NCBI RefSeq assembly: GCF_023015615.1
Contig: NZ_JALKAJ010000002.1
Location: 1,006,501-1,070,500 of the forward strand
Origin: Qipengyuania sp. S6317L1
GTDB lineage: Bacteria > Pseudomonadota > Alphaproteobacteria > Sphingomonadales > Sphingomonadaceae
DNA length: 64,000 nt
Reading direction: 5' to 3'
Part shown: positions 8,480 to 24,217 of the stretch, one piece after another
How positions within the stretch are numbered: position 1 is the first letter of the stretch
Layout of the letters: every line of letters begins with the position of its first letter
The notes under the pieces: generated by a model
Databases searched by the model: none
What the model saw: only the letters and a program-made list of their open reading frames with translations
What the model was told of the DNA's origin: nothing
Translations under genes and position numbers: made by a program

Positions 8480-8565
8480 TATAGATTCGCGCAAAGGCAG
8501 GGGTGGACCCTTGCAAAAAACCTGCAACAACACCGCAGCGCGCGCTCAACAAAGGGTTTGAATTG

Positions 8566-9093
8566 ATGGCGAAAATGAAAACGATTGCCGCCCTTGGCGG
8601 GGCTGCAACGCTGGCTGGAATGGCCGTGGCAGGGGCAAGTGCGCCTGCGTTTGCTCAGGCGAGCAGCGCAAGCGACTATCGCAATCCCGTGCCCAATGTG
8701 ATGCGCAATTGTGCGCCCGGCAATGGACCGGCGGTGCGGGTCACGATCAATGGCATCAGGGAAGCAAACGGAACCATCCGCGCACAGGTTTACAACGGCA
8801 CCAAGGCCGATTGGCTCACCTCGGGCAAATGGTTGAACCGCGTCGAGGTCCCGGCGCGCCGGGGCCGGATGACGGTCTGTCTGCCTGTTCCCGAAAGCGG
8901 CAATTACGCGGTCGCGGTGCGCCACGATGTGAACAATAACGACAAAACCGACCTTCGCACCGATGGCGGCGCAATGTCGAACAACCCCTCGATCAACATC
9001 TTCAATCTTGGCAAGCCGGGCATCGATAAAACCCGCTTCAGCGTTGGCGATGGGGTCAAATCCATCTCGATCACAATGAAATATATGACCTGA
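8566..9093 (+). CDS. Exported DUF2141 family protein
   Basis: A 175-residue secreted protein. The first 31 or so residues form a Sec signal peptide ending APAFA-QA. The mature region has the DUF2141 beta-sandwich pattern: V.V.INGIR..NGTIRAQVYN, the two-cysteine core, GNYAVAVRHDVNNNDKTDL and a C-terminal SITMKY strand. Proteins of this family are periplasmic or secreted and of unknown function. I chose the ATG at 8566 because it precedes a normal signal peptide; an in-frame GTG at 8503 would add 21 residues without family sequence. It is convergent with the Tam41-like gene, with only 8 bp between the stops. A second DUF2141 protein is at 26238. Confidence 0.8.
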   Translation: MAKMKTIAALGGAATLAGMAVAGASAPAFAQASSASDYRNPVPNVMRNCAPGNGPAVRVTINGIREANGTIRAQVYNGTKADWLTSGKWLNRVEVPARRGRMTVCLPVPESGNYAVAVRHDVNNNDKTDLRTDGGAMSNNPSINIFNLGKPGIDKTRFSVGDGVKSISITMKYMT

Positions 9094-9101
9094 TCGCGCC
9101 G

Positions 9102-10013
9102 TTAGCCTTTGGGTGTCCGGCGGTGCTTGCGCAGCTGCCATAACACCGAAGGCGCGGCGAGCAGCGGGTATTTCTCGCGAAACGGGGTGACTTCCACCGG
9201 CATGCCGGTGTGGCGCTCCACCTTCCATGCGGCATAGCGGGCGGCGCCTTCGAACGTGGTGCTTGCCTTGATCAACCGTGTGAAGTTGAGCGGCTTGCCC
9301 ATCGCCTCGCGCGCTTTCCACCATTTGAGGATTTGCGAACGCTCCCTTTGCGAAAGGCCCGGCGTGATGCGCCCGTTCGTGACCGTATAGGGAACGCCAC
9401 CCGCCGTGAGCGCAAGCGGCAAAAGCCCGTCGAAATGGTCAGCATTGACGCTCAGGATATCGTTTTCGCGGCCCGTCTTCTCAACCCGGAATTCGGCCTT
9501 GTAGGTCGCCCGAAAAAGCGCACGCCAATAGTCCTCGGCTGTCCCTGAAGGAGGGCCAAGCGCCACCGCGAGGCGCGCTGCGGTCTGCGCGGCGGTTGCG
9601 ATCGCCTCGATCACACGCCCGCGCGCCGCATCATCGGCGGCCCATACCAGTGCACTGGGCTGGACAAACCGCGCCCAGATCGTTGTGTCGAGCAATTCGC
9701 CAGAGGCGGCCTTGGCGAAGGTCGATAGCGCCATGGTCGCGATTTTTGCGCGTAACGGCGTGCCATCGGCGGCCTCGCGCTCCTGATAACTTACGCGCGG
9801 CCAGATGCGCTCGCGCTGATCGCCGGGCAGCAGGATATAGAAATCAAGCACCCCTTCAAGCGAGCCTGTGCGCAGGTTAGAGCCATAGAACAGCACCGCA
9901 CACGCGCCCGCTTCCACCGCCAGATGGCGCGCAAATTCGGCGACCGCCGGATCAACGCCGGCCTTGGCGCGCGCCTCGATCCGCTGATGCAGGGATTGTG
10001 TGTCGCTGGACAT
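9102..10013 (-). CDS. Tam41-like nucleotidyltransferase (candidate CDP-diacylglycerol synthase)
   Basis: A 303-residue soluble protein that I align by eye with the Tam41/Mmp37 family, the mitochondrial phosphatidate cytidylyltransferase. Matching blocks occur in order. AVLFYGSN (residues 39-46) matches the family FGYGSG. LDFYILLPGD (Asp57) matches the (I/V)D-F/I strand. A K.(A/G)...L..F/L...SGELLDTTIWARFVQPS block matches the WN..YLAGRLQKP segment. FRATYKAEFRVEKTGREND matches ALSYAGDIR..GGENPDKV. The C-terminal LIKASTTFEGAARYAAWKVER matches the ISKSS..QTIKGV..AG..K..KYAW region. AAGGA precedes the ATG at 10013; a GTG at 10031 is an alternative. It lies 21 nt behind a lipid kinase gene. The CTP:phosphatidate activity is an inference. 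Confidence 0.6.
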   Translation of the reverse strand: MSSDTQSLHQRIEARAKAGVDPAVAEFARHLAVEAGACAVLFYGSNLRTGSLEGVLDFYILLPGDQRERIWPRVSYQEREAADGTPLRAKIATMALSTFAKAASGELLDTTIWARFVQPSALVWAADDAARGRVIEAIATAAQTAARLAVALGPPSGTAEDYWRALFRATYKAEFRVEKTGRENDILSVNADHFDGLLPLALTAGGVPYTVTNGRITPGLSQRERSQILKWWKAREAMGKPLNFTRLIKASTTFEGAARYAAWKVERHTGMPVEVTPFREKYPLLAAPSVLWQLRKHRRTPKG

Positions 10014-10034
10014 TGTGCGCGGATCCTTCACGCC

Positions 10035-11084
10035 TCAAGGCGCGACAAATTCCAGCTCTGGCCCTTGCGCGATTAGGTATTCGCCGGGCGGAAACGCCTC
10101 GCCATCGACGATAAAGCTGTCTTCGATGCGCAAGGTGAACTGGCTGGTGCTGAGTTGGTGGAACCCTTTTTCGCGAATGTTTTCAGGCGTTTTTCCGCGC
10201 AGCATCTGCAGCACGATCCCTGCGGATTTGCGTGAAATCTGATCGGTTACGGCGATTTTCAATCCGCCGCGCGCCGTGCCGAAGGGAGTGGCGCCGCCCG
10301 GCATTCGCTCAAGCGTCGAGGCCAGTAATATCTGCCGCCATTCAGGATCGCCCACGCCCGAATGTTCAAGCGGCGTATCGTCCGGACCAAGCCCGATCCG
10401 CATTTTCGATCCCTTGCGCCAGGAATTTTCGCGTGAGGCAAACAGCCACTGGCAAACACCCAGCACGCCCGCAACGACCACGGCCATCGAATTGAACGCG
10501 CCCATTTTATGCGCGCTTTGCCCCGCAGTTGTCGCGGTGGTGAACGCGCCGCCGCCAAGGATAAAACCCAGAAGGCGGCTCTTTTGCGTTTCGCCCAGCG
10601 GGGTCACTTCCATCGGGCGACGGCGCACACGCGTGCCCTGGTCAAAGGCATCAATCGCCTCCTGCAAGGTCCAGCCGGTCGGCACGCCCAGATCAAAGGT
10701 CAGCGCATTGGTCTTGCCCTTGGGCAGGACGGCAACAGCCGGCCAGTTATCGCCAAAGATCGCCGCCCCGCTCGTGAGCACATCGCGCACGGTCCCGTCG
10801 CCGCCATTGATGACGAGCAGGTCGATCCCGCGCTGCACGAAATCCGCCAGAGCGTTCGGCAAGTCCTCGCGATCGCCGGGCAGTGCAAAGTGCACTTGCG
10901 GCGATTGGTCGCAGTCGAAATCGACGCCCTTATTGCCGTGGCTGCGCGGATTGTAGATCACGCCGACACGCGGCGCTTCGCCGATTTCGCGCGCACGCGG
11001 CGCAGGAGCCGCGCCCGGGACCACAGCGGGAGCCGGGCTTGCATCCTGCGGAAGCTTTGCAAATTGATGGATGGGCGAAGACAT
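10035..11084 (-). CDS. Diacylglycerol/sphingosine kinase family lipid kinase
   Basis: A 349-residue DAGK-catalytic-domain protein of the BmrU/YegS/DgkB type. VGVIYNPRSHGN opens the domain near residue 40, and the nucleotide-binding LLVINGGDGTVRDVL motif follows near residue 90, then LPKGKTNALTFDLG. The C-terminal half has GFILGGGAFTTAT and a closing DGEAFPPGEY strand, as in YegS-like kinases. Such enzymes phosphorylate diacylglycerol or related lipids at the membrane surface. The start is the ATG at 11084; the frame is open further upstream, but that region is the promoter of the divergent gene. The next gene downstream is the Tam41-like nucleotidyltransferase, which suggests the product is phosphatidate for CDP-diacylglycerol synthesis. 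Confidence 0.8.
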   Translation of the reverse strand: MSSPIHQFAKLPQDASPAPAVVPGAAPAPRAREIGEAPRVGVIYNPRSHGNKGVDFDCDQSPQVHFALPGDREDLPNALADFVQRGIDLLVINGGDGTVRDVLTSGAAIFGDNWPAVAVLPKGKTNALTFDLGVPTGWTLQEAIDAFDQGTRVRRRPMEVTPLGETQKSRLLGFILGGGAFTTATTAGQSAHKMGAFNSMAVVVAGVLGVCQWLFASRENSWRKGSKMRIGLGPDDTPLEHSGVGDPEWRQILLASTLERMPGGATPFGTARGGLKIAVTDQISRKSAGIVLQMLRGKTPENIREKGFHQLSTSQFTLRIEDSFIVDGEAFPPGEYLIAQGPELEFVAP

Positions 11085-11155
11085 GGGCTTGTCTATAGTG
11101 TCTTGCCCGCGAGATTGCCACTCTTGAGACGTTATCTGCGCGTGGCCGCCCTTCC

Positions 11156-11191
11156 TAACAGCCTTTGTCACATCGGTAACGATGCTTGTCA
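11156..11191 (+). promoter_or_regulatory. Tandem TAAC-N6-TGTCA operator, site 1
   Basis: TAAC-AGCCTT-TGTCA (11156-11170) is followed exactly 21 bp downstream by TAAC-GATGCT-TGTCA (11177-11191), so both copies face the same side of the helix. The 17 bases CCTAACAGCCTTTGTCA (11154-11170) recur without change at 17477-17493 before the other promoter in this locus. Tandem direct repeats are the usual target of OmpR-family regulators, and one is encoded at 18566. It lies about 90-125 bp upstream of the Slam-like gene. Confidence 0.65.
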
Positions 11192-11232
11192 GCGGACGCG
11201 CGCGGACAACTGCGGCATTGCCCCACATGCGA

Positions 11233-11247
11233 GCCCCGATGCGGGGC
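11233..11247 (+). other. GC hairpin in leader of the Slam-like gene
   Basis: GCCCCG-ATG-CGGGGC is a perfect 6-bp stem with a 3-nt loop, followed by GAATTTT. It lies between the tandem operator and the ATG at 11280. It could attenuate or stabilise the leader, but the T-run is short. Confidence 0.35.
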
Positions 11248-11279
11248 GAATTTTGGGTGATAACGGGGGCAGTTTCAAT

Positions 11280-12572
11280 ATGTTCAACCTTTTCCACGCG
11301 GCACGCCAGATGGCTTTCGTGGGTGCGGCATCGCTTGCAACATTCGCGCCTGCGATGGCGCAGGCGCAAGCCGGTGAAAACGCAAATTACGAGGCACTTG
11401 CGGCACAGGCTGGCGAACGGGCAGGCGATCCTGCGTTCGACTATCAGCTTGCCATTGCAGCGATAGATGCAGGCCGCTTTGGCGATGCGATCATCGCGCT
11501 CCAGCGGGTCCTTGCGGTCCAACCCGACAATGCAGCCGCACGCGCCGAGCTGGCACGCGCCTATGCGCTGGCGGGCGATATCGACACCGCGCGCGAACAA
11601 TTCGCGACCGTCGTCGATGACCCCACCTTGCCCGATCCCGTGCGCCAGCGCTTCACCGGTTTCGTGCGCCAGTTCGACAGGCAAATCGCAGGCGGCGGCT
11701 CGGATGTGAGCGGCTTTGTCGATGCACGGGTGGGCTATGACGACAATATCAACACCGCCACCGCGCAGGACGCGATTGTAATCCCGTTGTTCAGCTTTCT
11801 GGGAGCAGGCCAATTGGGCGCCGCTGCGCAGGCGCAAAGCGATGAATATTACGAGCTGACCGGCGGCATCTCGGGCGTTACCGCAATAGGGCGTCAGGAT
11901 CGCCTGTTCGCATCGGCTCTGGGCAGCTGGCGCGACAATTTCAGCTCTGGCGCATTTGATCAGGCCGCCGTTACCGCGACCGCCGGCTATGCCCACACTT
12001 TTGCCAACCGCGACGTCGTCTCGCTTTCGGGTCAGGTACAGCGGTTCTGGCTTGATGATGACGGTTTCCGTTCCTCCGTCGGGGCGATTGCCCAATACAC
12101 AAAACCGCTTTCGGGGGGCCGTGCGCTGAGCGTTTCGGCGCAGTGGAACCGGCTCAATTTCGATGGTGACCCCTTGCGCGATGCCGATCGTTTCGCAGCG
12201 GGCGTCGGCTTTGTCGGAAAGAATTTCGCCGCCAATATCTCAGGGGGCAAGGAAGAAACCCGTGAGCAAGCAGGCGATGCGCAAAGCTTTGGCTTTGTCG
12301 CTGCCAATGTCGGCGCAGAAGTGCCGGTGGCCAAGCGCATCGCGCTGGTCGGCGGCGCAGCGTTTGACCTTCGCCGCCATGACACGAGCGACCCCTTGTT
12401 CCTTGTGGAGCGCGAGGACGAACGCCTTGATGTTCGTGGCGGAGTGAAAGTCGCCGTGCTCGACAATCTCTTCCTCCAGCCGAGCGCCACCTACACGCGC
12501 AACTGGAGCAACATTCCCCTTTTCGACTTTGAGCGCTGGACCGTGTCGGTCGGCGCGCGTCTCGAATTTTGA
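11280..12572 (+). CDS. TPR plus outer-membrane beta-barrel protein, Slam/DUF560-like
   Basis: A 430-residue exported protein. The signal peptide ends near AMAQAQA. Residues 35-130 form two to three TPR-like helical pairs (DAIIALQRVLAVQPDNAAARAELARAYALAGD). A linker with LPDPVRQRF leads into a C-terminal half of alternating aromatic/polar strands that ends in Phe (VSVGARLEF), the classic outer-membrane barrel signature. The GYDDNIN turn and TPR-then-barrel order match surface lipoprotein assembly modulators (Slam, DUF560), which move cargo proteins across the outer membrane. The next gene, 21 nt downstream, encodes a large exported protein with cargo-like barrel modules. A generic TPR-porin remains possible. 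Confidence 0.65.
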   Translation: MFNLFHAARQMAFVGAASLATFAPAMAQAQAGENANYEALAAQAGERAGDPAFDYQLAIAAIDAGRFGDAIIALQRVLAVQPDNAAARAELARAYALAGDIDTAREQFATVVDDPTLPDPVRQRFTGFVRQFDRQIAGGGSDVSGFVDARVGYDDNINTATAQDAIVIPLFSFLGAGQLGAAAQAQSDEYYELTGGISGVTAIGRQDRLFASALGSWRDNFSSGAFDQAAVTATAGYAHTFANRDVVSLSGQVQRFWLDDDGFRSSVGAIAQYTKPLSGGRALSVSAQWNRLNFDGDPLRDADRFAAGVGFVGKNFAANISGGKEETREQAGDAQSFGFVAANVGAEVPVAKRIALVGGAAFDLRRHDTSDPLFLVEREDERLDVRGGVKVAVLDNLFLQPSATYTRNWSNIPLFDFERWTVSVGARLEF

Positions 12573-12593
12573 TTCTTTCTTGGAGGCAATGAC

Positions 12594-15500
12594 ATGACCG
12601 CCATTACAACAACTTCAAAAGCCACCTCGCGCGTCCTTCTCATCGGGGCTTCAGTGCTTGCCCTTAGCGTGCCGGCAAGTGCCAATGATGTCCTTTTCAG
12701 CACTTCGGCAACGCAGGTCCAGGCCGGACAACGCACCACGCAAACCACGGGGCTGTTGCAGATCAGGCTGGCATCCGGTGCGACCGTTTCGATCACGCAG
12801 GGCACACAATACACGCTCAACCAGAACGGCTCGATTGACCTTCACAAAGGCTCGATCACGGTGACGGGCGCGGGCCGGTCCGCGACCGAGGTCCGGATGC
12901 CTGGCGGCACCATTGCAAGGGTCGAAAGCGCCGATTCGGCGGCCAGCTTCTCTGTGGCCGAGGACGGTAGCGCCTCGGGCCATACGCTGACCGGAAGTGT
13001 AAAGGTGGGCCGTGAGAACGGGCGCGCCAAGACATACAAGGCGGGCGATATGTGGGGTGCAAAAGCGGGTCAGGGGCCCAGGCGCACCATCGCCAACGCT
13101 CCGCAACGCCAGCCAGGTGCAACGACCGAACCGGTTGAGGTCGCCACCATCAGCGGCGATGCAGGCCCGGTGAACGCGGCGCTTAACGGTATTCCGGTCA
13201 CGCTCGGCGATGGGCTTGCAGCCGCTGGCGCGTCATCGGACATTATCGATGCAGGCCGCCGGGTCGAAGCCGCGGTCGCGAACCCTTCCATCGACCGGTT
13301 CCCGAGCGGCGATCTTGCATTGCTGGTCGCAGCGGCAGCCGATCTTGAAAGAGCATATGGCGGCGCGCCCTTCAACGCAGCGCAAGCCGACATCATCCGT
13401 TCCTATCTGCGCTTTCTGGCGAGCGGCGCATCGGGCGCAGACTTCCTCTCCGCATACAGCGCCTTCACGCTCGGCTATCTGGAGCTTCTTCGCGCAGGCG
13501 GGGTGCCCGGCGGCTTTAGCAGCGGCGTTGCAACAGCGGCGGATATCGACGCCTATCTCGCTTTCCTCAATCGCACCGGTGCACTGACCGATCTTGGCGC
13601 GCAGGACCGCGCGCTGGTCGATGCCTATCTCGCGTTTATCGCAAGCGGGCAGGACCGCGATCTGTTCGCTGCATCCTTCACCGATCTGACTGCCGCCTAT
13701 TTTGCATTCCTGCGCGCTGGCGGCGTACCTTCGGAGTTCACCGGCGCAAGCGACGAAGCGCTCGCGGCGTCCATCGCCTTTCTTCAGCAAAGCGGCCTTC
13801 TGGTTCAGCTGAGCGCCGCCGATCAGGCCCTGATCGCAGCGTTTCTCGACAATGGCGGGATTGCCTTTGCCGCGCAGTTCCAGACCGCGCTTGCCGACTA
13901 TTTCGCCTATCTCGCAAGCGGCCAGAGCCCGAGCGACTACGCAGCTCTCGATCAGGCGACAGTGCGCGCCTATCTCGAAGTGCTTTCGAACACCGGGCTG
14001 CTTGCCAACCTTGATGGTGTTCAGGCGCAATTTTTCGCCGACTACCTCGCATTCTTGCGCGCAGGGGGCGATGTCGATGCCTTCGCCGGGCTTCCGGCCA
14101 ATGTGTTCGCAGGCTATCAAACCGAGCTTGCCGCCTATTTCGCCTTCCTCGAAAATGGCGGTATTCCATCGGCTTACACGCCGTTGTCGCAAGAGGTGAT
14201 CGCACAATATATCGCCGCGCTCCAGCAAGCGGGGGCAACCCAATTGTTCCTCGGCGATCTGGCTGATTTTTACGAAGCCTATTTCGCCTTCCTGAGCGAT
14301 GGCGGCAATCCCGACAATTTCGCAGGGCTTCCTGTGCCACCTGATTTCCCCGCGTTCGCAGCCGCGCTCAACGCCTATGCCGCGTTCCTGTCTGCAAATG
14401 GCCTGCCCTCGGATTTCACCGAGACCGACCTTGCGGCCTTGCGCGAATTTTTCAGCGCGGTGGAGCAATCTGGACAGGTCGATGACCTGCTTGGCGAAAA
14501 TGCCGCGCTGCTCTCGGCGTATTTTGCATTCCTCGCCTCTGGCGGTGCGCCCGACGGATTTACAGGGCTGCCTGTCTATCTCGAGTATGTCGCGGCTCTG
14601 AATGCCTATTTCGCCTTCCTTGAAGCGGGCAATCTGCCCAGCGAATATACCGAGCTCGATCAGGCAACGATCCAGGCCTATCTCGCCGCACTGACCGCAG
14701 CGCAAGGGGGGCTTGCCGGGTTTGGCGATCTCAATGATTTCTTCATCGAGTATTTCAACTTCCTGCTCGCAGGAAACGATCCCGACCTGTTCGATGGTCT
14801 GCCCGGAATGGGCGGCGGTAATGGCGGGGGTGATCCGGGCTCAGGCAACAATCCGACGCTCGTTTATACCGGCGGGTTCACCCCGCAAGGCACCGGGATC
14901 ATTGGCGCAGGCTCATGGGCCGATGAAGGCAGGGATCCGATCGACGATGCCTATGTCAGGGATATCCGCCTGCTTGGCCCTGGACCTTACGATGCTATTC
15001 TCGATGAAAATGGCGGGCTGGAGCAATATGTCTTTGCAAGTCAGAATTTCATCTATGCTGATCGCGGGACGGCGCAAACGGTTGACATCAGTGGCAATGA
15101 AGACCTTCTGATCGGTCGCTGGACCAACGGCACCTATCAACGCTCAAACGGCAGGGGCGAGCTGTTCGGTTACGACCTGACCGCTAATCAGGGGTTCCAT
15201 TACCTCTTGGCGAACGGTTTTACCGGCCCGGCGGATTATCCGACCGGACGGGTCGAATACGAATTGCTGGCAGCCACGTCGCCAACCTTGATCGACGGAT
15301 CACAGGCACCTGGCACCTTTGCCGCCGATGCCGCGATTATCTTCGGAACGAGCCCCGCTTTCGCAATCGAAGGGTCAATTGCTTTTGCCGACTTCACCTA
15401 TAATTTTGCGACTGACGGCGGAGTAGCAGGAGAGGGCCGGCCAATCTTCCTGCCGAGCGATGGCAATGGCAATTTGGGATATTTCAACGTCTCAGCGCCC

Positions 15501-17444
15501 GGATCGCGCGGCTCAGGCTTCTCGGGCCAGATCGTGTTTCAGGTCCAGGTTCCCGATGCACAAGCCTCGCAATTCGGCACGCAATACACCGCGAGCGATT
15601 TCAACCTGAGCAATTCCGCTGATGCGGTAAACATTCTTGGCGCTGCGATTTTCGGCGCGGTTGATGGCGATAGTGGCAATGGGGGCACCGGTGGTGGCGC
15701 GGGCGGCAACCCGATTATCACAACGCGCTCCGACGTCTTCAGCACCATCTTCTATAACGCCGCGGACAATGCACGCGGGCTGGGCACAGCGACGGTATCT
15801 GACGGCAGGCTCGCCGGATTTACCACCGGAGCAGGCCCCGTAGAGCCAGTTACCGCTGAAATCGTCGAGGGTGGCTCTAACGATGACCTGGCGTGGGGCC
15901 GTTGGACCAATGGAACCGTGACCGTCACCAATTTCCTGAGTTTCTCAGGGGCGAATAACAGCTCGGCACACGTTTTCTCAGGCTCCAGCCCAATCAATCT
16001 GCCGACGACAGGTGTTGTCGAATACGAACTGATCGGTTCGACGAGCCCGACTGATAATCAGGGCAGCGCACCGGGCACAATCACAGGCGACATGGTCGTG
16101 AGCTTTGCTGGGCCCCGACATATCGGTCTTGAACTCGATATGACTGTTGGCGGCAAAACATGGTCAACTGCTACAACAGGCGGGGTCGCTGATCCGACGC
16201 AGAGCGAGATCACACTGCCTTTCGTGCAGAATCCCTTCGAACTGGCGGCTCCCAATTTCACCAGCAGCGCCAATGCTTGCACTTCCAGCTGCACCGCGAC
16301 TTTGTCGGGACGACTTTTTGGCGACGGTGCTGCTAGCTCTGCGACCGCGTTTCTCGTCAACGACATCAGCGGCGCGGTGAACACGCTTGCACAAGGGATC
16401 GCCGTTTTCGGCGCCACAGGCACCCGAGACACAGGCGGCGGAACCGGCGGCGGCACAGGTGGCGGCACTGGCGGCGGCACAGGCTTCACCGGCGCGCGCG
16501 ATAGTCAGGTGTATTATGCCTTCCTCGACGGGTCGCTCAACACTGGCTTTGGTGGGTCGGTCGACTTCGTTGATGGCCAGATCACCGGTATGTCATCGCT
16601 CGTCGGGACCGTTTCCAGCAACGACACAACCATTGTCGAAGCCACCGATCTTGGCGAAGTCGCGTGGGCACGGTGGACCAATGGCACGGTTCAAACCACT
16701 GGCCTTCTTGGAAATCTCGATTTCCCCGTGGGCGCCAATGGCGGTTATCATGTGATGACCGGCGAAGTGACCACGAGCCTTCCGGGCGGCACAGTCGCCT
16801 ACGAATTGATCGGCGGGACCTCAGCGACCGACAACGCGGGCTCTGCGCCCGGCACTCTCACCGGTGATCTTGCCATCGCTTTTGGCGCAGGCAACCTTGT
16901 CGGCTACGACCTTACCATGGCCGTGGGCGGACGCAGCTGGTCTATATCGACCAACGGCGGTGCAGCCGATCCGGCGAGCAGCGACATCAACCTTGTGGTG
17001 AGCAGTGCAGGCTTCACCTTTGGCGGCTCTTTTGCCAACTCAATTGGTACCGTCACCTCGACCGGAGACACTTGCTCGATCAGTTGTTTCGTCAACGTAA
17101 GCGGGACACTCTATGGTGATGATGCTGCCTATGCCGCTCTGGCGATGAATGTGACAGACAGCGGTCTCAGCCGTGTTGTCGCAGCTTCGGGCCTTGCGAT
17201 CTTCGCCCAGGAAGGGGCTGCAAGCCCGACCAGCGTGCAGGCGCCTTCGAGCGCGGCGACCGACTGGAGCCGTTGGGATGTCGCCGCCTCTGGCAAAAGC
17301 GATGCGCCAGCCTCGATCGCACCTGCAACGATGCCGACGCTTGAGGCGGTGACCGCACGGCAAGTCACCGACAGGGCAGGCGCGATTGCTGGGGCCGAAG
17401 CGATGATGGGCGGCATGATCAGCTGGGGCGGCGTCCAGCAGTAA
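12594..17444 (+). CDS. Large exported FecR-domain protein with helical repeats and three barrel-like C-terminal modules
   Basis: A 1616-residue protein behind a clear GGAGG site. The signal peptide ends near residue 30 (VPASA-ND). Residues about 35-165 form a FecR-type domain (SGATVSITQGTQYTL, DLHKGSITV, PGGTIARVES). Residues about 240-740 carry roughly a dozen degenerate helical repeats of the form AYFAFL..GG.P..F..L. After a Gly-rich linker come three modules of about 240-270 residues (about 750-1020, 1040-1280, 1300-1540). Each has a W.RWTNGT motif, a VEYELIG.TSPT..G..PGT strand pair and an SG.L.G closing strand, like TbpB-type barrels carried by Slam systems. Modules 2 and 3 each hold a CxxxC pair that module 1 lacks. 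Gly-Thr linkers separate modules. Likely a surface or secreted cargo of the preceding gene. Confidence 0.75.
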   Translation: MTAITTTSKATSRVLLIGASVLALSVPASANDVLFSTSATQVQAGQRTTQTTGLLQIRLASGATVSITQGTQYTLNQNGSIDLHKGSITVTGAGRSATEVRMPGGTIARVESADSAASFSVAEDGSASGHTLTGSVKVGRENGRAKTYKAGDMWGAKAGQGPRRTIANAPQRQPGATTEPVEVATISGDAGPVNAALNGIPVTLGDGLAAAGASSDIIDAGRRVEAAVANPSIDRFPSGDLALLVAAAADLERAYGGAPFNAAQADIIRSYLRFLASGASGADFLSAYSAFTLGYLELLRAGGVPGGFSSGVATAADIDAYLAFLNRTGALTDLGAQDRALVDAYLAFIASGQDRDLFAASFTDLTAAYFAFLRAGGVPSEFTGASDEALAASIAFLQQSGLLVQLSAADQALIAAFLDNGGIAFAAQFQTALADYFAYLASGQSPSDYAALDQATVRAYLEVLSNTGLLANLDGVQAQFFADYLAFLRAGGDVDAFAGLPANVFAGYQTELAAYFAFLENGGIPSAYTPLSQEVIAQYIAALQQAGATQLFLGDLADFYEAYFAFLSDGGNPDNFAGLPVPPDFPAFAAALNAYAAFLSANGLPSDFTETDLAALREFFSAVEQSGQVDDLLGENAALLSAYFAFLASGGAPDGFTGLPVYLEYVAALNAYFAFLEAGNLPSEYTELDQATIQAYLAALTAAQGGLAGFGDLNDFFIEYFNFLLAGNDPDLFDGLPGMGGGNGGGDPGSGNNPTLVYTGGFTPQGTGIIGAGSWADEGRDPIDDAYVRDIRLLGPGPYDAILDENGGLEQYVFASQNFIYADRGTAQTVDISGNEDLLIGRWTNGTYQRSNGRGELFGYDLTANQGFHYLLANGFTGPADYPTGRVEYELLAATSPTLIDGSQAPGTFAADAAIIFGTSPAFAIEGSIAFADFTYNFATDGGVAGEGRPIFLPSDGNGNLGYFNVSAPGSRGSGFSGQIVFQVQVPDAQASQFGTQYTASDFNLSNSADAVNILGAAIFGAVDGDSGNGGTGGGAGGNPIITTRSDVFSTIFYNAADNARGLGTATVSDGRLAGFTTGAGPVEPVTAEIVEGGSNDDLAWGRWTNGTVTVTNFLSFSGANNSSAHVFSGSSPINLPTTGVVEYELIGSTSPTDNQGSAPGTITGDMVVSFAGPRHIGLELDMTVGGKTWSTATTGGVADPTQSEITLPFVQNPFELAAPNFTSSANACTSSCTATLSGRLFGDGAASSATAFLVNDISGAVNTLAQGIAVFGATGTRDTGGGTGGGTGGGTGGGTGFTGARDSQVYYAFLDGSLNTGFGGSVDFVDGQITGMSSLVGTVSSNDTTIVEATDLGEVAWARWTNGTVQTTGLLGNLDFPVGANGGYHVMTGEVTTSLPGGTVAYELIGGTSATDNAGSAPGTLTGDLAIAFGAGNLVGYDLTMAVGGRSWSISTNGGAADPASSDINLVVSSAGFTFGGSFANSIGTVTSTGDTCSISCFVNVSGTLYGDDAAYAALAMNVTDSGLSRVVAASGLAIFAQEGAASPTSVQAPSSAATDWSRWDVAASGKSDAPASIAPATMPTLEAVTARQVTDRAGAIAGAEAMMGGMISWGGVQQ

Positions 17445-17478
17445 AACCGGTGAGCAAGGGGCGCGCAGGTCGCACACC

Positions 17479-17514
17479 TAACAGCCTTTGTCATCCTCGT
17501 GACAAGGACTGTGT
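17479..17514 (+). promoter_or_regulatory. TAAC-N6-TGTCA operator, site 2
   Basis: TAAC-AGCCTT-TGTCA at 17479-17493 lies within a 17-base block (17477-17493) identical to site 1. At the same 21-bp offset there is a degenerate second copy, TGAC-AAGGAC-TGTGT (17500-17514). It sits 64 bp upstream of the CsgG/SH3-like gene, which suggests common control with the Slam-like/FecR operon. Confidence 0.6.
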
Positions 17515-17577
17515 GTGGTCCGCGCGCCCCTCGCTTGCGACAAGCTTTCCACGCGACAATTCGTAAGGGGAAGTGCA

Positions 17578-18450
17578 ATGAAACGACTGACTGCAAAACT
17601 GGCATCCATCGCCGTTATCGCCGCTCTGGCATCACATGCGCCGGCGCAGGCCAAGGACGATGTCGAACTCGTCACCTGTGAGGAAAGCCTCGGGACAATC
17701 GCAATTGTCGATGGCGATACGCAAGGCTGGGCCGAATTTGACCTGGGCTCACCGCGCCCGATCATCAATTCGCTCGCCGTTGATTCGGGCTGTTTCACAC
17801 CACATTCTCCCGCAAGCGGCGAGCCAGCCGACTTTCTGATGAATGTGATCGCAGGGTCGAGCGAAGAGGTCGATCAATCCATCGAAATCGCCAAGACCGC
17901 GGCTGTCGAAGGTCTGGTGCGTTCGGGCGCTGCGACTTCGGTGATGAGCCGCGTTCCGGGCGCGGGCGCTGTCATGGGCATGTTCAACATGTTCGGCGGC
18001 AAGAAGAAGCGCGTTGCTGCTGGCATCAAGCTGCTCTCGCCTGCGACTGGCATGGCGGTCGTCACCGGATCTGGCACCGTCAAGCGTAGCTCGCTGAGCT
18101 TTCGCGGATCATCGCCGTGGAGCGCGATTGGCGATCAGGCCGGGTACAGCGACAGCCGACAGGGTAAACAACTTGTCGAGGCTTTCGTGATCGCCTTTAA
18201 CCAGGTGGTGGCACAAGATGCCGCCATCCGCGCAACACCGCGCGCAGCCGCTGCAACACCTGCCAGCGATGTTGCGACAGTTAACGTCGCCACTTCCATG
18301 CTCGCCATGCCGATGGACAGCGCCGATGCGCTGCGCGGTCTTGAGCCTGGCACGACGTTGAACCCGACCGGCAAGCGCGAAGGCCTTTTCGTAGAGGTCG
18401 AAGACAACTTCGGTACCAAGGGCTGGGTCTCGGTCGAAGCACTTAACTGA
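17578..18450 (+). CDS. Exported CsgG-like protein with C-terminal SH3-like domain
   Basis: A 290-residue exported protein. The signal peptide ends APAQA-KD near residue 25. The body resembles CsgG-type proteins: a CEESLGTIAIVDGD strand, a SPRP.I..LAVDSGCF helix, a long variable loop with a glycine-rich FGGKKKR segment, then AGYSDSRQGKQLVEAFVIAFNQVV, like the C-terminal helix of such folds. The last 40 residues (LEPGTTLNPTGKREGLFVEVEDNFGTKGWVS) look like a bacterial SH3 domain. AAGGGG precedes the ATG at 17578. It has its own promoter carrying the shared operator and ends in a strong terminator, so it is monocistronic. Its role could be peptidoglycan or envelope anchoring; the CsgG assignment is tentative. 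Confidence 0.6.
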   Translation: MKRLTAKLASIAVIAALASHAPAQAKDDVELVTCEESLGTIAIVDGDTQGWAEFDLGSPRPIINSLAVDSGCFTPHSPASGEPADFLMNVIAGSSEEVDQSIEIAKTAAVEGLVRSGAATSVMSRVPGAGAVMGMFNMFGGKKKRVAAGIKLLSPATGMAVVTGSGTVKRSSLSFRGSSPWSAIGDQAGYSDSRQGKQLVEAFVIAFNQVVAQDAAIRATPRAAAATPASDVATVNVATSMLAMPMDSADALRGLEPGTTLNPTGKREGLFVEVEDNFGTKGWVSVEALN

Positions 18451-18475
18451 TTGCTTTTGGGGGGCGACCCGAGGA

Positions 18476-18527
18476 GGCGGGCGTCAGCCGGGCCAGATAG
18501 AGTGCCCGTGTGACGCCCGTCTTTTTT
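18476..18527 (+). terminator. Intrinsic terminator after the CsgG/SH3-like gene
   Basis: A two-tier hairpin: the outer stem pairs 18476-18486 with 18511-18521 (10 of 11 pairs), the inner stem pairs CGGGC (18489-18493) with GCCCG (18504-18508), and six T residues follow directly (18522-18527). Confidence 0.9.
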
Positions 18528-18565
18528 CACAAATGCAATCATAGGCTTGCAGGGAAGGCGAGAGG

Positions 18566-19315
18566 ATGGCAATTCTTCATACAGGCGAGGCAAGCCAAGG
18601 CTTGGAAAGGCCTGACGGGGGTATGGCAAGAAACGCTCTGAGAATTCTTTATGTCGAAGATGATCCACGCACGGCTGCTGCGGTAAGCGAGCTTGCCTCA
18701 TCGAGCGGCGACACGCTGGTGTGGGAACAGAACGGCAGCGCGGCTCTCTTGCGCGCGGGGATGGAGGCGTTCGATATCATCATCCTTGACCGGATGCTGG
18801 GCGATATCGACGGGCTCACCATTACGCGACGACTTCGCGAAAGCGGAATTGGCACGCCGATCCTCATGCTGTCCGCTCTTGGCCGCAGCGCCGACCGCGC
18901 CGAAGGGCTCGATGCGGGCGCAGATGATTACATGGCCAAACCCTATGAACCCGATGAATTGATGGCCCGCCTTCGCGCGCTTCACCGCCGCAACGCAGGT
19001 CAGGAACATCAGGCGGTCATCATCTACGGCGCGTTTGAATGTCATTTGAAAGCGCGCACCGCCTTTCGCGACAACAAACACCTGTCGCTAAGCCCCAAGG
19101 AATTCGAGCTGTTCCGCTATTTCATGGAGAATGCGGGCGAAACGGTAACGCGCGACATGCTGCTGCGCGATGTGTGGAACATCGACTTTGACCCTCAAAC
19201 CAATGTGGTCGACGTCAATATCGGCCGCCTTCGCAGAAAGCTTGAAGAAGGGTTCAAAAGCCCCGCGCTCGAGACGATCTGGGGCTCTGGCTACCGTATT
19301 CTCGAAGGCGTTTGA
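18566..19315 (+). CDS. OmpR-family response regulator
   Basis: A 249-residue DNA-binding response regulator. The receiver domain has the acidic cluster VEDDP (residues 30-34), the phospho-acceptor Asp75 in IILDRMLGD, the conserved Ser in LMLSA and the Lys in AKPYEPDELMARL. The winged-helix output domain (about 150-249) has LSPKEFELFRYFMENAGETVTRDMLL and VDVNIGRLRRKLE, the OmpR/PhoB recognition region. The start at 18566 follows a GGCGAGAGG stretch; an internal ATG at 18623 could also serve. It is coupled to the histidine kinase (stop and start nearly touch). It is the natural candidate to bind the tandem TAAC-N6-TGTCA sites in this locus. Confidence 0.93.
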   Translation: MAILHTGEASQGLERPDGGMARNALRILYVEDDPRTAAAVSELASSSGDTLVWEQNGSAALLRAGMEAFDIIILDRMLGDIDGLTITRRLRESGIGTPILMLSALGRSADRAEGLDAGADDYMAKPYEPDELMARLRALHRRNAGQEHQAVIIYGAFECHLKARTAFRDNKHLSLSPKEFELFRYFMENAGETVTRDMLLRDVWNIDFDPQTNVVDVNIGRLRRKLEEGFKSPALETIWGSGYRILEGV

Positions 19316-19317
19316 GC

Positions 19318-20655
19318 GTGGAGGCACGCCGCTCCATTTTCTCCCGGCTCGTGGCGGGCGCGATCGGGCTCTCCATCGTGCTGGTCATTGCGCTGTGGTT
19401 TGTGACGCATCAAACGGTGCTCACCACGCTTGAGGATGGCGCGGCGAAAGAGGTCGATGTCGATATTGCCGGTCTTGTCGATATTTATGCAACCAGCGGC
19501 CTTGATGAGCTGTCCGAACGCATCGATGACCGCATTGCGCTGACCCCGTCGGAAGGCAACACGCCGCATTACCTGCTCGCCAATGATGATGGTGACCCGA
19601 TTGCGGGCGATATCGCGCAGTGGCCACAGCTTGACCCGATGGTGTCAGAGACAGGCTTTGTGCCCATCGGTGCCAAATCGGAAGGGTTTGCAAGAGCCGT
19701 GCAATTGGGGCCGGACCTGCGCCTGCTGGTCGCGCGCCGGACCGATAACAACCGCGAGATCCTGAGCAATATCGCGCTCGCCTTTGCCGTTGGGGGCAGC
19801 CTGTTCGTGCTGCTGGTGGCATTGCTTGGCCGTCTGGCCGCGCTGGGCCTGCAACGGCGTATCGGACAGATCAACCTCGCCTTTCGCGATCCGGCCAAGG
19901 CGAACGATCTTGCGCAAGGGTCGAGCGGCGATGAAATCGACGAGCTTACCGGCCATTCGGCAAGGGCAATCACACGCCAGCGCGGTTTGAGCGAAGCGTA
20001 TAAGGAAACCTCCGAACAACTCGCCCACGAGATGCGCACGCCTTTATCGCACCTCGACAACCGGCTTTTGAAAGCGCTCGAAGAATCGCCCAAACCCAAT
20101 GTGGCGCAGCGGCTGGTCGAAGCGCGAAGCGAGATCAAGCGCCTTGTCCAGACGCTCGAATCGCTGCTCGATATTGCGTCGAGCAAAAGCCGCCGGGGTG
20201 ACCGCGCAGGGCTCGCGCCTGTCGATATGAGCGCGATGGTGAACAGCCTTTGCGAACTTTACGCAGGCAGCGCAGAGGAAACAGGGCACACATTCACATG
20301 GGAGGTGGAGCCGCGGGTGATGATCGAAGGCGAAGAGCGCCAGCTTAGCCGGCTTATCACCAATCTGCTCGACAACGCACTTAAATATGTGCCCGAAGGC
20401 GGCACGGTTTCGGTAACGCTGGATGAAGGCCCCGAACTGGTCATCGCAGACAATGGCCCGGGCGTCGCGCCAGCCGACCGGACACGCATTTTTGACCGTT
20501 TCTACCGTGGCCGCTCGAACAGCGACGCCACCGGATCCGATGTGCATGGCAGCGGCCTGGGCCTCGCGCTCGCCAAGGCCATCGCAGAACGTCACGGATT
20601 GACGCTCGCCCTTGATGACACAAAGATTGGCGCAAGCTTTCGACTGAAAAAGTGA
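19318..20655 (+). CDS. Membrane sensor histidine kinase
   Basis: A 445-residue kinase with an N-terminal transmembrane helix, a periplasmic sensor loop of about 120 residues, a second transmembrane helix (GGSLFVLLVALLGRLAALG), a HAMP-like linker and a DHp domain with the phospho-acceptor His near residue 237 in LAHEMRTPLSHL. The ATPase has the N box NLLDNALKYVPEGG, the G1 box DNGPGV and the G2 box GSGLGLALAKAI. I chose the GTG at 19318, which lies 9 nt after GAAGG; a TTG at 19312 overlaps the regulator stop. It partners the regulator at 18566 and sits between the FecR/Slam genes and the CHAT gene, so its signal may be the state of the envelope machine they encode. Confidence 0.92.
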   Translation: MEARRSIFSRLVAGAIGLSIVLVIALWFVTHQTVLTTLEDGAAKEVDVDIAGLVDIYATSGLDELSERIDDRIALTPSEGNTPHYLLANDDGDPIAGDIAQWPQLDPMVSETGFVPIGAKSEGFARAVQLGPDLRLLVARRTDNNREILSNIALAFAVGGSLFVLLVALLGRLAALGLQRRIGQINLAFRDPAKANDLAQGSSGDEIDELTGHSARAITRQRGLSEAYKETSEQLAHEMRTPLSHLDNRLLKALEESPKPNVAQRLVEARSEIKRLVQTLESLLDIASSKSRRGDRAGLAPVDMSAMVNSLCELYAGSAEETGHTFTWEVEPRVMIEGEERQLSRLITNLLDNALKYVPEGGTVSVTLDEGPELVIADNGPGVAPADRTRIFDRFYRGRSNSDATGSDVHGSGLGLALAKAIAERHGLTLALDDTKIGASFRLKK

Positions 20656-20663
20656 GAAATGAG

Positions 20664-21350
20664 ATGAACAAGTCCAAATCACGGTCGGGTTTTTACAAGG
20701 TTTCTGGAGGGCTTGGAGCTAGTCTTCGCCCCATGGCAGAGAAAAAGGCATCCGTTACAGCCATTTGCGCTGGCGCATTGTTGGCAGGGCTCGGCTGTGC
20801 GCCTGTCGCGACATCGAGCGAAGCTTCCGCACAAACTGCATCGTTGCAACGCGGCCCTGCTCCCGAATCGCAATGGCGCGCCGCACGGCTGGCGCAAAAC
20901 CTCGCCGATGCGGAAATCGCACATGAAGCGGGCGAGAGCGCCAAACTCGCGCAGCTCGTAAATGCCTTGAAGATGAGCGGGCTGACCCCGCACGATCAGA
21001 ACAGCGCCGATCATGTGAGCCAATGGAGCCTTGCATCCGGCGGCGAAGCGATCCCGTTTCGCGGTCGACTTCTTGGCCCTGCCTATGTGCGCGGCGAATT
21101 GGCACCCGGCGAAGTCTGGAAAAGCGCGCAGACTTTCAAATCGGGCGAGCCAAGCACCCTTGCCGTCTCGCACAAGGGCTCTGGCCCGGTCAGCTTGAGC
21201 GTCTCCGATCAAAGCGCGCGCCGCGTATGCGCGGAACCCGGCCAAAAGGCTCCCGCCTGCCGCTTTACCCCCCTTTATACCCAGCGATATCGAATCGAAC
21301 TCACCAACAAGGGGCCTGGACGTGCGGTTTATTTTCTCGTCTTTGATTAG
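20664..21350 (+). CDS. Small exported protein of unknown function, coupled to the CHAT gene
   Basis: A 228-residue protein that I do not recognise. A hydrophobic segment (VTAICAGALLAGLG) after a long basic N-terminus suggests export, with likely cleavage near ASA-QT. The middle is charged and helical (RAARLAQNLADAEIAHEAGESAKLAQLVNAL). The C-terminal 100 residues look like a beta-sandwich (GELAPGEVW, TLAVSHKGSGPVSLSV, RYRIELTNKG, AVYFLVFD) with two cysteines, resembling PPC-like domains. The ATG at 20664 follows the kinase stop by 8 nt; an internal ATG at 20733 is possible. Its end overlaps the CHAT gene by 29 nt, so the two are probably translated together. It may be an adaptor or substrate of the CHAT protein. 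Confidence 0.65.
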   Translation: MNKSKSRSGFYKVSGGLGASLRPMAEKKASVTAICAGALLAGLGCAPVATSSEASAQTASLQRGPAPESQWRAARLAQNLADAEIAHEAGESAKLAQLVNALKMSGLTPHDQNSADHVSQWSLASGGEAIPFRGRLLGPAYVRGELAPGEVWKSAQTFKSGEPSTLAVSHKGSGPVSLSVSDQSARRVCAEPGQKAPACRFTPLYTQRYRIELTNKGPGRAVYFLVFD

Positions 21351-24117
21351 GATGTTTGGCGCGGGCGCATTGCTCGCCTTCTCTGCCCCCGCAGCAGCCC
21401 AGTATTTCGACATTTACGGCGAGGCGAACCGCACTTTGCCCGCCGCCCAAACCGCCTATGATGCGATGGATGCAGGCGCGGATGATGGCGCGGATGATGA
21501 TGAACGCGCGCAGCGTACATCCGACCTCATCATGGGCCTCATCGGCAAGGCGAAATACAAGGAAGCCTACGAGCTTTACCTTGAGAGCGCCGATCTGGAC
21601 CTTCACCCCGATGCACGCATGGGCGCAGTGGGCCACGGGCTCGTCGCTTTCACCAAGGACGAGGCGCTGATCGCGGAATACATCGCCCAGCTGGAGGCCA
21701 AGGTCGAAAGTGCGTCCTGCGCCCCGTGCTATGCCCGCACATTTGCCGCCCACCATCTGGCGCGGTATTATTTCATCCAGAACGAAGACCTCCCGCGATC
21801 GCTTGAGTGGCACAAGAAGGCGCTCGACCTCGCGCTTGAAGATCTTGCCGCCGATGATCCTGCGCGGGTCAATTTCGCCTATCAGTACGCCGCCTACCTG
21901 CGCAATCAGGACCTCACAGCGAGCGCCAGGGCGGTGCGCTATACAGAAGAACTCGCGTTCGAGCTTTTGCCGCGCGATGATCACCTTGGCTGGCTCTATG
22001 TCTTCCTTGCCAATGCGCTGGTCGCACTGGACAGTGGCAGGACCGCCGAGGCTGCCGATCTCTTCGGACGTATCGCGGATATCGGTGTTGCAGAATGGGG
22101 CCCCACCGACCCGCAACTGCTTGGCATTTTCCAGAACACCGCCATTCTCAATTCGCGCCTTGGCCGCACCCGGCAGGCGGTCGAAGTTGCCCTTCGCGCA
22201 GAAGGCAATCAGGCCTATTCCGACAAGAGCGAGCACGCCTATCATCAGGCGCTTATCGCCCGGCTTTTGTTCGAGGATGCACGGCCAGAGGAAGCCGTGG
22301 CCTACTTCCGCGAAGCGATGGCGCTTTGGGACGGGACTCCCGATGAAGACATTTACCTGACCCATGCGCGAATCAGTTTTGCCAACACGCTCTCGCTGTT
22401 AGGCCAAAAAGACGAGAGCTATAATGAAGAGGCAAAAGCGCTTCTCAAAATGGCCCTGCCCACATTCGAGGCGCTTGACCTCACCAGTCCCCAGCGCCGC
22501 GAATACCAGACGCTGGCCTCGCTCATCTATGCAAGGGTGGGGGAGCTAGAACGCGCCGCCGATACGCTCGCGCCTGTGCTGGATGTCAACGAGCAGGTGC
22601 TTCTCGATGTGTATGCCCAGGATCAGGAACGCCGCGCGGTCGCCTCCGACGGGACCGAGCTGTTCCGCGATGCGGCCCTGATCTCGCTCTTGAGCGGTGA
22701 CGATGAACGCGCATGGCGCAGCGCCCAGCTTGCCGTCATCAGCGACCTTGCGATGAGCGCAGCCGCGCTCACCTATCCCGGCGATCCCGAAGGGTTCAGC
22801 GCCGCACTCGACGATGTGCGACTTGCACGCGCAGCGCAGGACGAGGCGCGCGTTGCGCTCGCCAATGGCGAGGGGAGCGCGAGTGCCCTGGCGCAAGCGA
22901 GCGCCGCGCGCGCGGCGGCAGAGACGGCCCTTGGCGAACGCTATCCCGATTTTGCCGACTATTTGCGGCCCCGTCCCCTTTCGATTGCAGGGGCGAATGC
23001 GCTCTTGAACGCAGAAGAAGCATATATCCTCCCCATCGTCTATTCCGACCGCGTGGTGACCATGGCGATTACCGCAGACGGATTTGCCTGGGGCCAATCG
23101 CAAACCGGCCCGTTCGAGGCGCGCGAGCTCATTTCCAAAGTGCGCTCATCGCTCGATGCCAGCCTTGGCGCAGACGACCAGTTCGACGCAGCCGCAGCGC
23201 ACCGGCTCTTTTCGCTGATCTTCACCGATGAAATTGCCGCTGCGACCAGCGGTAAAGCCAAGCTGATCTTTCCGGCAGGCGGCGCCTTGGCGGTCATCCC
23301 GCCTTCCATCCTTGTCACCAAAGACCAGGAAGGCGAGCCGGCCGAATTCCTGATTGAACGCCACGCCATCGCGATCACGCCGGGTCTGGGCGGGCGGCAA
23401 AGAGCACGCGCAGCTGCGCCCAAGAGCTTTGCCGGCATCGGCGCGCCCAGCCTCGCGAAAGCGCCGGCCAACCGTTTCGCCCTTCGCGGAACGGTGGTCG
23501 ATGTTGAAAGCATCAGCGCGCTCCCCTCGCTTCCCGGCGCAAACGAAGAGTTGATTGCTCTCAAGTCCGCTTTTGACGAGGACCGCGAGGGACTTGGCAC
23601 GCTTGTTCTGACCGGCGATGCCGCCACCGAAGAGGCCGTGCGCGCTGCGCCTCTGGCCGATTTTCAGGTTCTCGCCTTTGCCACCCATGGCCTTGTCAGC
23701 GGCCAGATTGCCGGGCTCAGTGAGCCGGCGCTCGTGCTGACGCCCGATGCAGCCAACGCCTCACCGCAAAACGACGGCCTGCTGACCGCGAGCGAGATCG
23801 GGCGGCTGCGTCTGGCGGCGGACTGGGTGGTCTTGTCGGCCTGCAACACCGCCGCTGGCGAGGGGCAGGCCTCACCCACCTATTCAGGGCTGGCCCGCGC
23901 TTTTCAGCTCGCGGGCGCCCGCTCGCTTCTCCTGTCGCATTGGCCCGTGCGCGACGACATCGCCACAAGGCTGAGCGTTGCGACGGTCAAGGCATCGGGC
24001 ACAGGCGTCGAGCGCAGCGAAGCCTTAAGGCGCGCACAGCTCAGCCTGATGAACGATAGCGCCGACAAAGCCACCCGTTCGCCCGCGCTATGGGCGCCGT
24101 TCGTGATCATAGAATGA
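21322..24117 (+). CDS. Exported TPR-CHAT domain protein (candidate periplasmic caspase-like protease)
   Basis: A 931-residue protein. The signal peptide ends SAPAAAQ near residue 27. Residues about 60-500 are TPR-like helical pairs (for example DLPRSLEWHKKALDLALEDL and EEAVAYFREAMALWD). Residues about 640-931 form a CHAT domain with the catalytic His789 in FATHG and Cys841 in LSACNTA, both intact, plus the GLARAFQLAGARSLLLSHWPV strand-helix typical of the family. CHAT proteins are caspase-like peptidases; the signal peptide places this one in the periplasm or outside. The GTG at 21322 has AAGGGG about 7 nt upstream; an ATG at 21352 would shorten the signal peptide. It is the last gene of the regulator-kinase operon. 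Confidence 0.9.
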   Translation: MRFIFSSLIRMFGAGALLAFSAPAAAQYFDIYGEANRTLPAAQTAYDAMDAGADDGADDDERAQRTSDLIMGLIGKAKYKEAYELYLESADLDLHPDARMGAVGHGLVAFTKDEALIAEYIAQLEAKVESASCAPCYARTFAAHHLARYYFIQNEDLPRSLEWHKKALDLALEDLAADDPARVNFAYQYAAYLRNQDLTASARAVRYTEELAFELLPRDDHLGWLYVFLANALVALDSGRTAEAADLFGRIADIGVAEWGPTDPQLLGIFQNTAILNSRLGRTRQAVEVALRAEGNQAYSDKSEHAYHQALIARLLFEDARPEEAVAYFREAMALWDGTPDEDIYLTHARISFANTLSLLGQKDESYNEEAKALLKMALPTFEALDLTSPQRREYQTLASLIYARVGELERAADTLAPVLDVNEQVLLDVYAQDQERRAVASDGTELFRDAALISLLSGDDERAWRSAQLAVISDLAMSAAALTYPGDPEGFSAALDDVRLARAAQDEARVALANGEGSASALAQASAARAAAETALGERYPDFADYLRPRPLSIAGANALLNAEEAYILPIVYSDRVVTMAITADGFAWGQSQTGPFEARELISKVRSSLDASLGADDQFDAAAAHRLFSLIFTDEIAAATSGKAKLIFPAGGALAVIPPSILVTKDQEGEPAEFLIERHAIAITPGLGGRQRARAAAPKSFAGIGAPSLAKAPANRFALRGTVVDVESISALPSLPGANEELIALKSAFDEDREGLGTLVLTGDAATEEAVRAAPLADFQVLAFATHGLVSGQIAGLSEPALVLTPDAANASPQNDGLLTASEIGRLRLAADWVVLSACNTAAGEGQASPTYSGLARAFQLAGARSLLLSHWPVRDDIATRLSVATVKASGTGVERSEALRRAQLSLMNDSADKATRSPALWAPFVIIE

Positions 24118-24140: not shown

Positions 24141-24217
<77 letters not shown>

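Follow-up and report, generated by a model that had tools for sequence, protein, structure and literature searches.

What do the seven genes on the + strand between a lipid kinase gene (so labelled in a first-pass annotation) and a tRNA-Arg gene (24141-24217, - strand) do together in Qipengyuania sp. S6317L1, and what, if anything, do they export? The locus lies in a 64-kb stretch of contig NZ_JALKAJ010000002.1, here called the window, and coordinates are window positions throughout; each of the seven genes was found on the + strand where the first-pass annotation had placed it. We consider it probable that they form a two-component-regulated type XI secretion system (T11SS; Slam/DUF560) locus that exports a giant protein, FECR, encoded beside a predicted outer-membrane translocon, SLAML, with a TPR-CHAT protein acting on the cargo. 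In the best-supported part of this reading, a neighboring two-component system controls a T11SS that has a giant multi-barrel cargo.

For comparison, a search for related loci gave 72: 21 from Sphingomonadales (L100 to L120, L100 being that of the closest relative) and 51 others, mostly from beta- and gammaproteobacteria, among which the Klebsiella, Dichelobacter and Pedobacter entries may be mis-binned contigs of metagenome-assembled genomes (MAGs). We also used a family sample of 99 genomes, in which G000 is the window genome.

A predicted translocon of divergent Slam type

SLAML (11280..12572, + strand, 430 aa) has TPRs at about aa 53-112 and a barrel at aa 140-430, and its assignment as a divergent Slam/DUF560 (T11SS) outer-membrane protein, first proposed from its layout in the first-pass annotation, is strongly supported by profile comparison and structural modeling. 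The profile comparison was restricted to the barrel because TPR similarity was thereby kept out; under this restriction, the window protein and three orthologues aligned with 16 Slam relatives in hhalign at a probability of 99.6 (E 5.6e-25, 269 columns). Two orthologues of about 50% identity (L068 and L069) match PF04575 (SlipAM) at 40.6 and 31.3 bits, above the curated cut-off of 22, and 19 of the 20 alignment rows (the window, three orthologues and 16 distant homologues) match it at E<=1e-3, with the window protein as the sole miss. One distant homologue scanned against Pfam matched SlipAM at 4.5e-12, and five suspected cargo lipoproteins, encoded near five of the distant homologues, all matched TbpB_B_D (E<=0.001; above the cut-off in four). 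An AlphaFold2 model built from 59 sequences (mean pLDDT 86.7) has TPR helices followed by 14 long strands over aa 142-429, and thus contains the barrel anticipated for this product; the published Slam barrel is likewise one of 14 strands. A PDB sequence search with the Slam alignment gave matches in the TPR part, among the best 60 of 104.

Homologues of SLAML were found at E<=0.001 in 33 of the 99 family genomes, some of them partial; identity reaches at least 50% in four (the window, G016, G089 and G040), and the remaining matches are at or below 37%. In an 85-row tree, from which four of the 72 loci with short or ambiguous SLAML matches were omitted, the 69 SLAML-type proteins stand on one side of a branch with 100/100 support and the 16 distant (canonical) Slams on the other. 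The canonical rows were all drawn from one family sample, so the tree places the SLAML type relative to these Slams rather than among the ten T11SS clusters given in the accessible part of PMC8406197.

A giant predicted cargo with three barrel modules

FECR (12594..17444, + strand) begins 21 bases after SLAML and is a predicted T11SS cargo of 1616 aa with a signal peptide, recognized by eye; its N-terminus ends ASA-ND with no cysteine, so that the lipobox pattern is absent and FECR would be of the soluble type instead. A FecR-like region at aa 48-136 (12735..13001, + strand) is followed by Y(F/L)AFL-type repeats over about aa 321-745 (13554..14828, + strand), in which a 24-residue spacing is common, and then by three TbpB-like modules, at aa 814-1021 (15033..15656, + strand), aa 1072-1273 (15807..16412, + strand) and aa 1328-1537 (16575..17204, + strand). 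The three copies were found with a profile seeded from 14 single-module beta- and gammaproteobacterial proteins, the FecR and module profiles both having been seeded within the set searched.

Compared with TbpB_B_D-type barrels in hhalign, the modules scored a probability of 96.1 (E 2.8e-9), and two barrel controls scored 0.1. A fold prediction for the third module, made on aa 1315-1545, reached a pLDDT of 92.4, and its top three PDB matches in Foldseek were the TbpB C-lobe, TbpB and NHBA, at TM-scores of 0.41-0.42. With VIA, the best 50 of 597 matches with Z>=2 were all NHBA, fHbp, TbpB or another surface lipoprotein, or hemophilin/HphA (Z 13.4-9.3). Among these, NHBA is a Slam cargo. According to the accessible parts of the respective papers, TbpB and fHbp are Slam-dependent (PMC5449769) and hemophilin-type cargo is linked to T11SS (PMC8406197). 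The interpretation of the C-terminal modules as Slam-cargo-like barrels, made in the first-pass annotation, is therefore supported by profile comparison and predicted fold.

The FecR part of that annotation fared less well. All eight beta- and gammaproteobacterial cargos scanned exceed the cut-off of PF04773 (FecR), and Sphingomonadales heads aligned with the FecR regions of such cargo in hhalign at a probability of 89.3 against 0.2 for the control, in a comparison without L114 and L120 and with three rows that start early. A profile of the beta- and gammaproteobacterial FecR regions matched none of the 20 Sphingomonadales heads in hmmsearch. Since the heads match by profile comparison alone, FecR is a likely label for the window protein, though not a firm one.

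Pairing of translocon and cargo across genomes

The pair is adjacent in 20 of the 21 Sphingomonadales loci, the 21st stopping at a contig edge, and a module protein lies 3′ of SLAML in 20 of the 20 loci with more than 600 bp remaining. Among the 51 other loci, a FecR-domain protein starts within 1.8 kb downstream of SLAML in 49 (L133 and L165 are without one), and 31 of those 49 proteins also carry a TbpB-like module; the gap between SLAML and the next ORF is mostly under 100 bases. Of 11 canonical Slam loci, none was matched by the FecR profile and one, L077, by the module profile. Given the pairing in 20 of 21 Sphingomonadales loci and the FecR neighbors in 49 of 51 loci elsewhere, SLAML and FECR therefore look like a T11SS subfamily with FecR-headed cargo, and the co-occurrence across related genomes by which the first-pass annotation proposed to judge its hypothesis is supported; neither of the two outcomes that it named as refuting was seen.

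Two further features of these loci were seen outside Sphingomonadales. In a Polaromonas locus (L160:11273-13997), two FecR-type cargo genes follow one SLAML gene in tandem. In 14 of the 51 loci (L121, L123, L124, L130, L131, L134, L137, L138, L139, L140, L150, L151, L158 and L160), SLAML and the FecR cargo gene are followed on their own strand by a TPR-glycosyltransferase gene of family 41; all five such genes scanned match PF13844, and the count of 14 comes from a profile built from those five. HMW1C-type systems glycosylate exported cargo, and the arrangement suggests that the cargo of these loci is glycosylated.

A shared upstream motif and the response regulator

Downstream of the pair lie genes for an exported SH3_3-like protein (17578..18450, + strand, 290 aa), a response regulator (RR) of OmpR/PhoB type (18623..19315, + strand, 230 aa), a sensor histidine kinase (HK; 19312..20655, + strand, 447 aa, with hydrophobic stretches at about aa 11-30 and 151-170) and a small exported protein, SML (20664..21350, + strand, 228 aa). 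The RR and HK genes overlap by four bases, and the RR consists of a receiver and a winged-helix Trans_reg_C domain by Pfam, which gave clear matches in the window proteins for the TPR, response regulator, kinase and CHAT families.

Two 38-bp operator-like sites precede these units: O1 (11155..11192, + strand), 125 bp 5′ of the SLAML ATG, and O2 (17478..17515, + strand), 100 bp 5′ of the ATG of the SH3 protein gene. O1 has four TNNCA-like pentamers about 10-11 bp apart, a spacing that we take to resemble PhoB/OmpR boxes. The 17-mer CCTAACAGCCTTTGTCA occurs exactly twice in the 64 kb, at 11154 and 17477, even with three mismatches allowed (chance 0.02), and the 38-bp motif is conserved in relatives, which bears out the earlier suggestion of a shared operator joining two transcription units. 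The motif was found at 35 distinct places (43 with opposite-strand echoes) in the window and the 21 loci versus 1.0 in first-order shuffles, a count that includes the 12 sites on which it was trained. All 35 places lie within 230 bp 5′ of the matched part of SLAML, SH3 or RR, and the motif precedes RR in L106 and L117, loci in which SH3 was not found. Outside the training set, SLAML sites above 13 bits occur in 14 of 18 loci (L116 at just 13.7) and SH3 sites in seven of seven.

RR-HK-SML is present without the SLAML-FECR pair in seven sampled genomes; in these loci, the motif lies before SH3 in L080 and L082, and weaker sites precede RR or lie close to it in L083, L086 (opposite strand) and L090. 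Conversely, it was absent at all four SH3 genes that have upstream sequence and no such RR adjoining (L091-L094), L099 being uninformative with just 146 bases upstream of SH3. From this position and co-occurrence, the RR probably binds the 38-bp motif.

Searching the window genome with up to two mismatches gave one further site, at C1:205859, with one mismatch. The gene after it (L177:8859-10001, on G000:C1) encodes an exported 349-residue protein with no Pfam match; no relative was found in 20 SLAML genomes in a search without a positive control.

Accessory exported proteins

The first-pass annotation had described the 17578 product as an exported CsgG/SH3-like protein. The CsgG label was not confirmed, with no Pfam match at E<=1, and the SH3_3 match of the window protein stays below the cut-off, as detailed below; its relative in L080 reaches 33.4 bits. 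For SML, a lipobox pattern is present in 15 of 20 sequences (homologues and window), perhaps by chance in L106, and the window GLGC does not match it. SML occurs in 12 genomes of the family sample and stands beside RR-HK in 11 of them, the match in G059 being weak. An identity with CATASP was rejected, since the single homologue at E 0.04 was judged insignificant, and a PPC-like appearance of the C-terminus had the support of no Pfam model in the window SML (E<=1) or in three homologues.

By eye, L083 has a lipid-kinase-like gene and other genes resembling window 8503-11100 beside RR-HK-SML-CHAT, with no SLAML-FECR; the pair was perhaps gained or lost there.

The TPR-CHAT protein

The last gene (21322..24117, + strand, GTG start) overlaps SML by 29 nt and encodes a TPR-CHAT protein of 931 aa. 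Its CHAT domain (PF12770; aa 625-930, 23194..24111, + strand) scored 158.9 bits (E 2.4e-46), and the His-Cys dyad is intact, with H789 in ATHG at 787 and C841 in SACNT at 839; the strict dyad pattern is kept in 52 of the 54 CHAT ORFs examined. By family, the protein would be a caspase-type cysteine protease.

CHAT matches at E<=1e-30 were found in 20 of the 21 SLAML-FECR genomes (the miss being the L114 MAG) versus 21 of 95 family genomes without the pair (Fisher 3e-10, from two differently drawn samples and ignoring kinship). Similarly, all 11 genomes with SML beside RR-HK have a CHAT match at E<=1e-40 versus six of the other 88, at a threshold set after the data were seen and again ignoring kinship. 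A tree of 60 CHAT domains, built without L101 and L116 (taken as the same records as G016:C13 and G040:C35) and without L086 and L214 (outside the strict dyad pattern; L086 reads ATHG and SSCD), places 18 rows that are linked to the two-component system, or come from genomes that have it, in one 20-row part with weak support (80/29); its other two rows are L188 and L098, the latter from G016, which has the two-component system. A 34-row group enclosing this part is supported at 100/98, and 14 of the 17 CHATs linked to TpsB, the translocon of two-partner secretion, lie across a 100/100 branch. Co-occurrence suggests that the CHAT protein acts on this secretion system, be it by trimming, clearing or signaling, and adjacency would not be required.

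The TpsB-linked CHATs include one in the same organism: the second CHAT gene of the window genome (L097, G000:C3:240001-255000) lies directly beside a ShlB/TpsB gene, and next comes an exported ORF of 1177 aa with no Pfam match. A TpsA label for the large ORFs beside other CHAT genes was dropped, as none of the three scanned has a Pfam domain. No TpsB was found in window 5001-30000 with a profile from the genome's own TpsB. In L192 (9270-10889), a CHAT gene lies two genes from an ORF that we take to resemble a contractile tail sheath.

A wider role for the protein is possible, though we hold it to be doubtful: CHAT would be a checkpoint of outer-membrane export, surveying large exoproteins at a translocon that is of Slam type here and of two-partner type elsewhere in the genome, with the kinase and an outer-membrane lipoprotein co-adjusting translocon, cargo and protease. 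We think it unlikely that CHAT is no processing enzyme at all, and instead a conflict or cell-death effector triggered via the envelope system. TPR-CHAT proteases act in Craspase, according to the accessible part of the literature, and an exported one could respond to surface damage; but PADLOC gave no match at E<=0.01 in the five window proteins scanned, CHAT included, the protein has a signal peptide by eye, and in 17 of 54 hand-picked CHAT loci TpsB is encoded no more than 6 kb from a related CHAT.

Weighing the proposed system

Under the preferred reading, SLAML would form an outer-membrane barrel of 14 strands, with its TPR domain in the periplasm, and translocate its neighbor FECR across the outer membrane. 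FECR would be a giant unlipidated protein in which the C-terminal TbpB-like barrels signal export, while the FecR-like head and the helical repeats make up the displayed part. The RR would bind the 38-bp operators before SLAML-FECR and before SH3-RR-HK-SML-CHAT, and export machine, cargo and sensor operon would thereby rise together. The lipoprotein-like SML would feed state to the kinase, which may sense the integrity of the system, and the exported TPR-CHAT protein, working in the periplasm or at the translocon, would trim the cargo or clear it.

A number of observations weigh against this reading, as does the inclusion of the training sites in the motif count. The pair occurs in just four of the 99 family genomes, and the sole other genome of the same genus sampled (G041) is without it. 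PF04575 has no match to the window SLAML even at E<=1, although its orthologues exceed the cut-off; the TbpB_B_D model likewise has no match in FECR at E<=1, although the modules are TbpB-like by profile comparison and predicted fold, and Foldseek of the module gave one match alone at E<=0.001, with a TM-score of 0.41. FECR scores 17.9 bits for FecR (cut-off 24), and the 17578 product 23.7 bits for SH3_3 (cut-off 27). No motif above 13 bits lies 5′ of SLAML in L107, L111, L114 or L120, and none at all was found in L087 and L088, which keep RR-HK-SML and have no SLAML. In tblastn at E<=1e-4 across L100-L120, several of which end early, RR was found in 17 of 21 loci, HK in 16, SH3 in 14, SML in 12 and CHAT in 10; RR is out of reach in L107, L112, L114 and L120, of which L112 and L114 end early. 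In the L107 genome, the best-matching RR, at 44% identity, is about 2.4 kb away from CHAT and apart from SLAML. In the L120 genome no close RR was found, the best match having 34% identity, so the pair can do without the regulator. Gene order and strand vary. CHAT lies just past the fetched flank in L103, L105 and probably L102 by genome coordinates; the genomes of L100 (from the closest relative), L106, L107, L115, L117 and L120 have it elsewhere. None of the 51 beta- and gammaproteobacterial loci has HK, SML or CHAT, and three have a weak RR match.

Several of these points would suit independent neighbors, that is, a plain T11SS-FecR cargo pair beside an unrelated operon of two-component system, lipoprotein and CHAT: the beta- and gammaproteobacterial relatives hold the pair without the two-component system and CHAT, RR-HK-SML stands without the pair in the seven genomes mentioned, and CHAT is apart from the pair in at least six of 21 genomes. 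We judge this slightly less probable still than the effector role, for in 14 Sphingomonadales loci besides the window (L100-L105, L108-L110, L112, L113, L115, L118 and L119) the motif stands before SLAML and also before SH3, and RR stays within the pair's fetched locus in 17 of 21 despite altered gene order. It is very improbable that SLAML serves polysaccharide export or is some unrelated TPR-barrel protein (BcsC/PelB type), with FECR exported otherwise: Foldseek with the SLAML model lists general barrels, BcsC and PelB included, with no Slam among the best 50 listed, and NCBIfam gives a weak BcsC TPR match, but the homology to PF04575 proteins was obtained with the barrel only, cargo-like modules adjoin in 20 of 20 loci and FecR proteins in 49 of 51, and Pfam found no glycan-synthesis domain among the seven genes.

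Relation to known systems and significance

The proposed locus shares with known T11SS/Slam (DUF560, PF04575) systems a TPR domain joined to a 14-strand barrel and an adjacent cargo with a C-terminal TbpB-like barrel. It differs in that the SLAML type is split in the tree from the 16 Slams of Sphingomonadales type, and in its cargo, which combines a FecR-like head with three barrels and lacks a lipobox; the locus is also linked to a two-component system and CHAT. The CHAT neighbor of two-partner secretion in the same genome (C3:245441, L097) is alike in its setting, next to a large exported ORF and the gene of an outer-membrane translocon; there, however, the barrel is TpsB/ShlB instead of Slam, and the CHAT falls in another part of the tree. 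Envelope two-component systems of Rcs/Cpx type have an accessory lipoprotein, and the kinase operon here is similar in encoding an exported lipoprotein-like protein and different in sitting beside a secretion pair. The soluble T11SS-1B cargo (hemophilin/HrpC) of PMC8406197 is, in the accessible part of that paper, also unlipidated with a C-terminal barrel, whereas FECR has three barrels and 1616 residues, and Pfam found no TonB-dependent receptor among the seven genes. By word count, the accessible main texts of PMC12282271 and PMC8406197 mention neither FecR nor CHAT, and no T11SS with FecR cargo or CHAT was found in the accessible parts of the literature searched.

These results assign a likely cargo to a T11SS branch distinct from the TbpB-lipoprotein Slams of this comparison. 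The likely cargo proteins have a FecR head and, in many cases, a TbpB-like tail, and they occur in Alpha-, Beta- and Gammaproteobacteria. The three modules of FECR suggest that barrel export tags can occur in tandem on giant proteins. The locus also provides a tractable example of one translocon accompanied by both a two-component system and a caspase-like protease, and through its conserved motif the proposed regulation can be tested directly.

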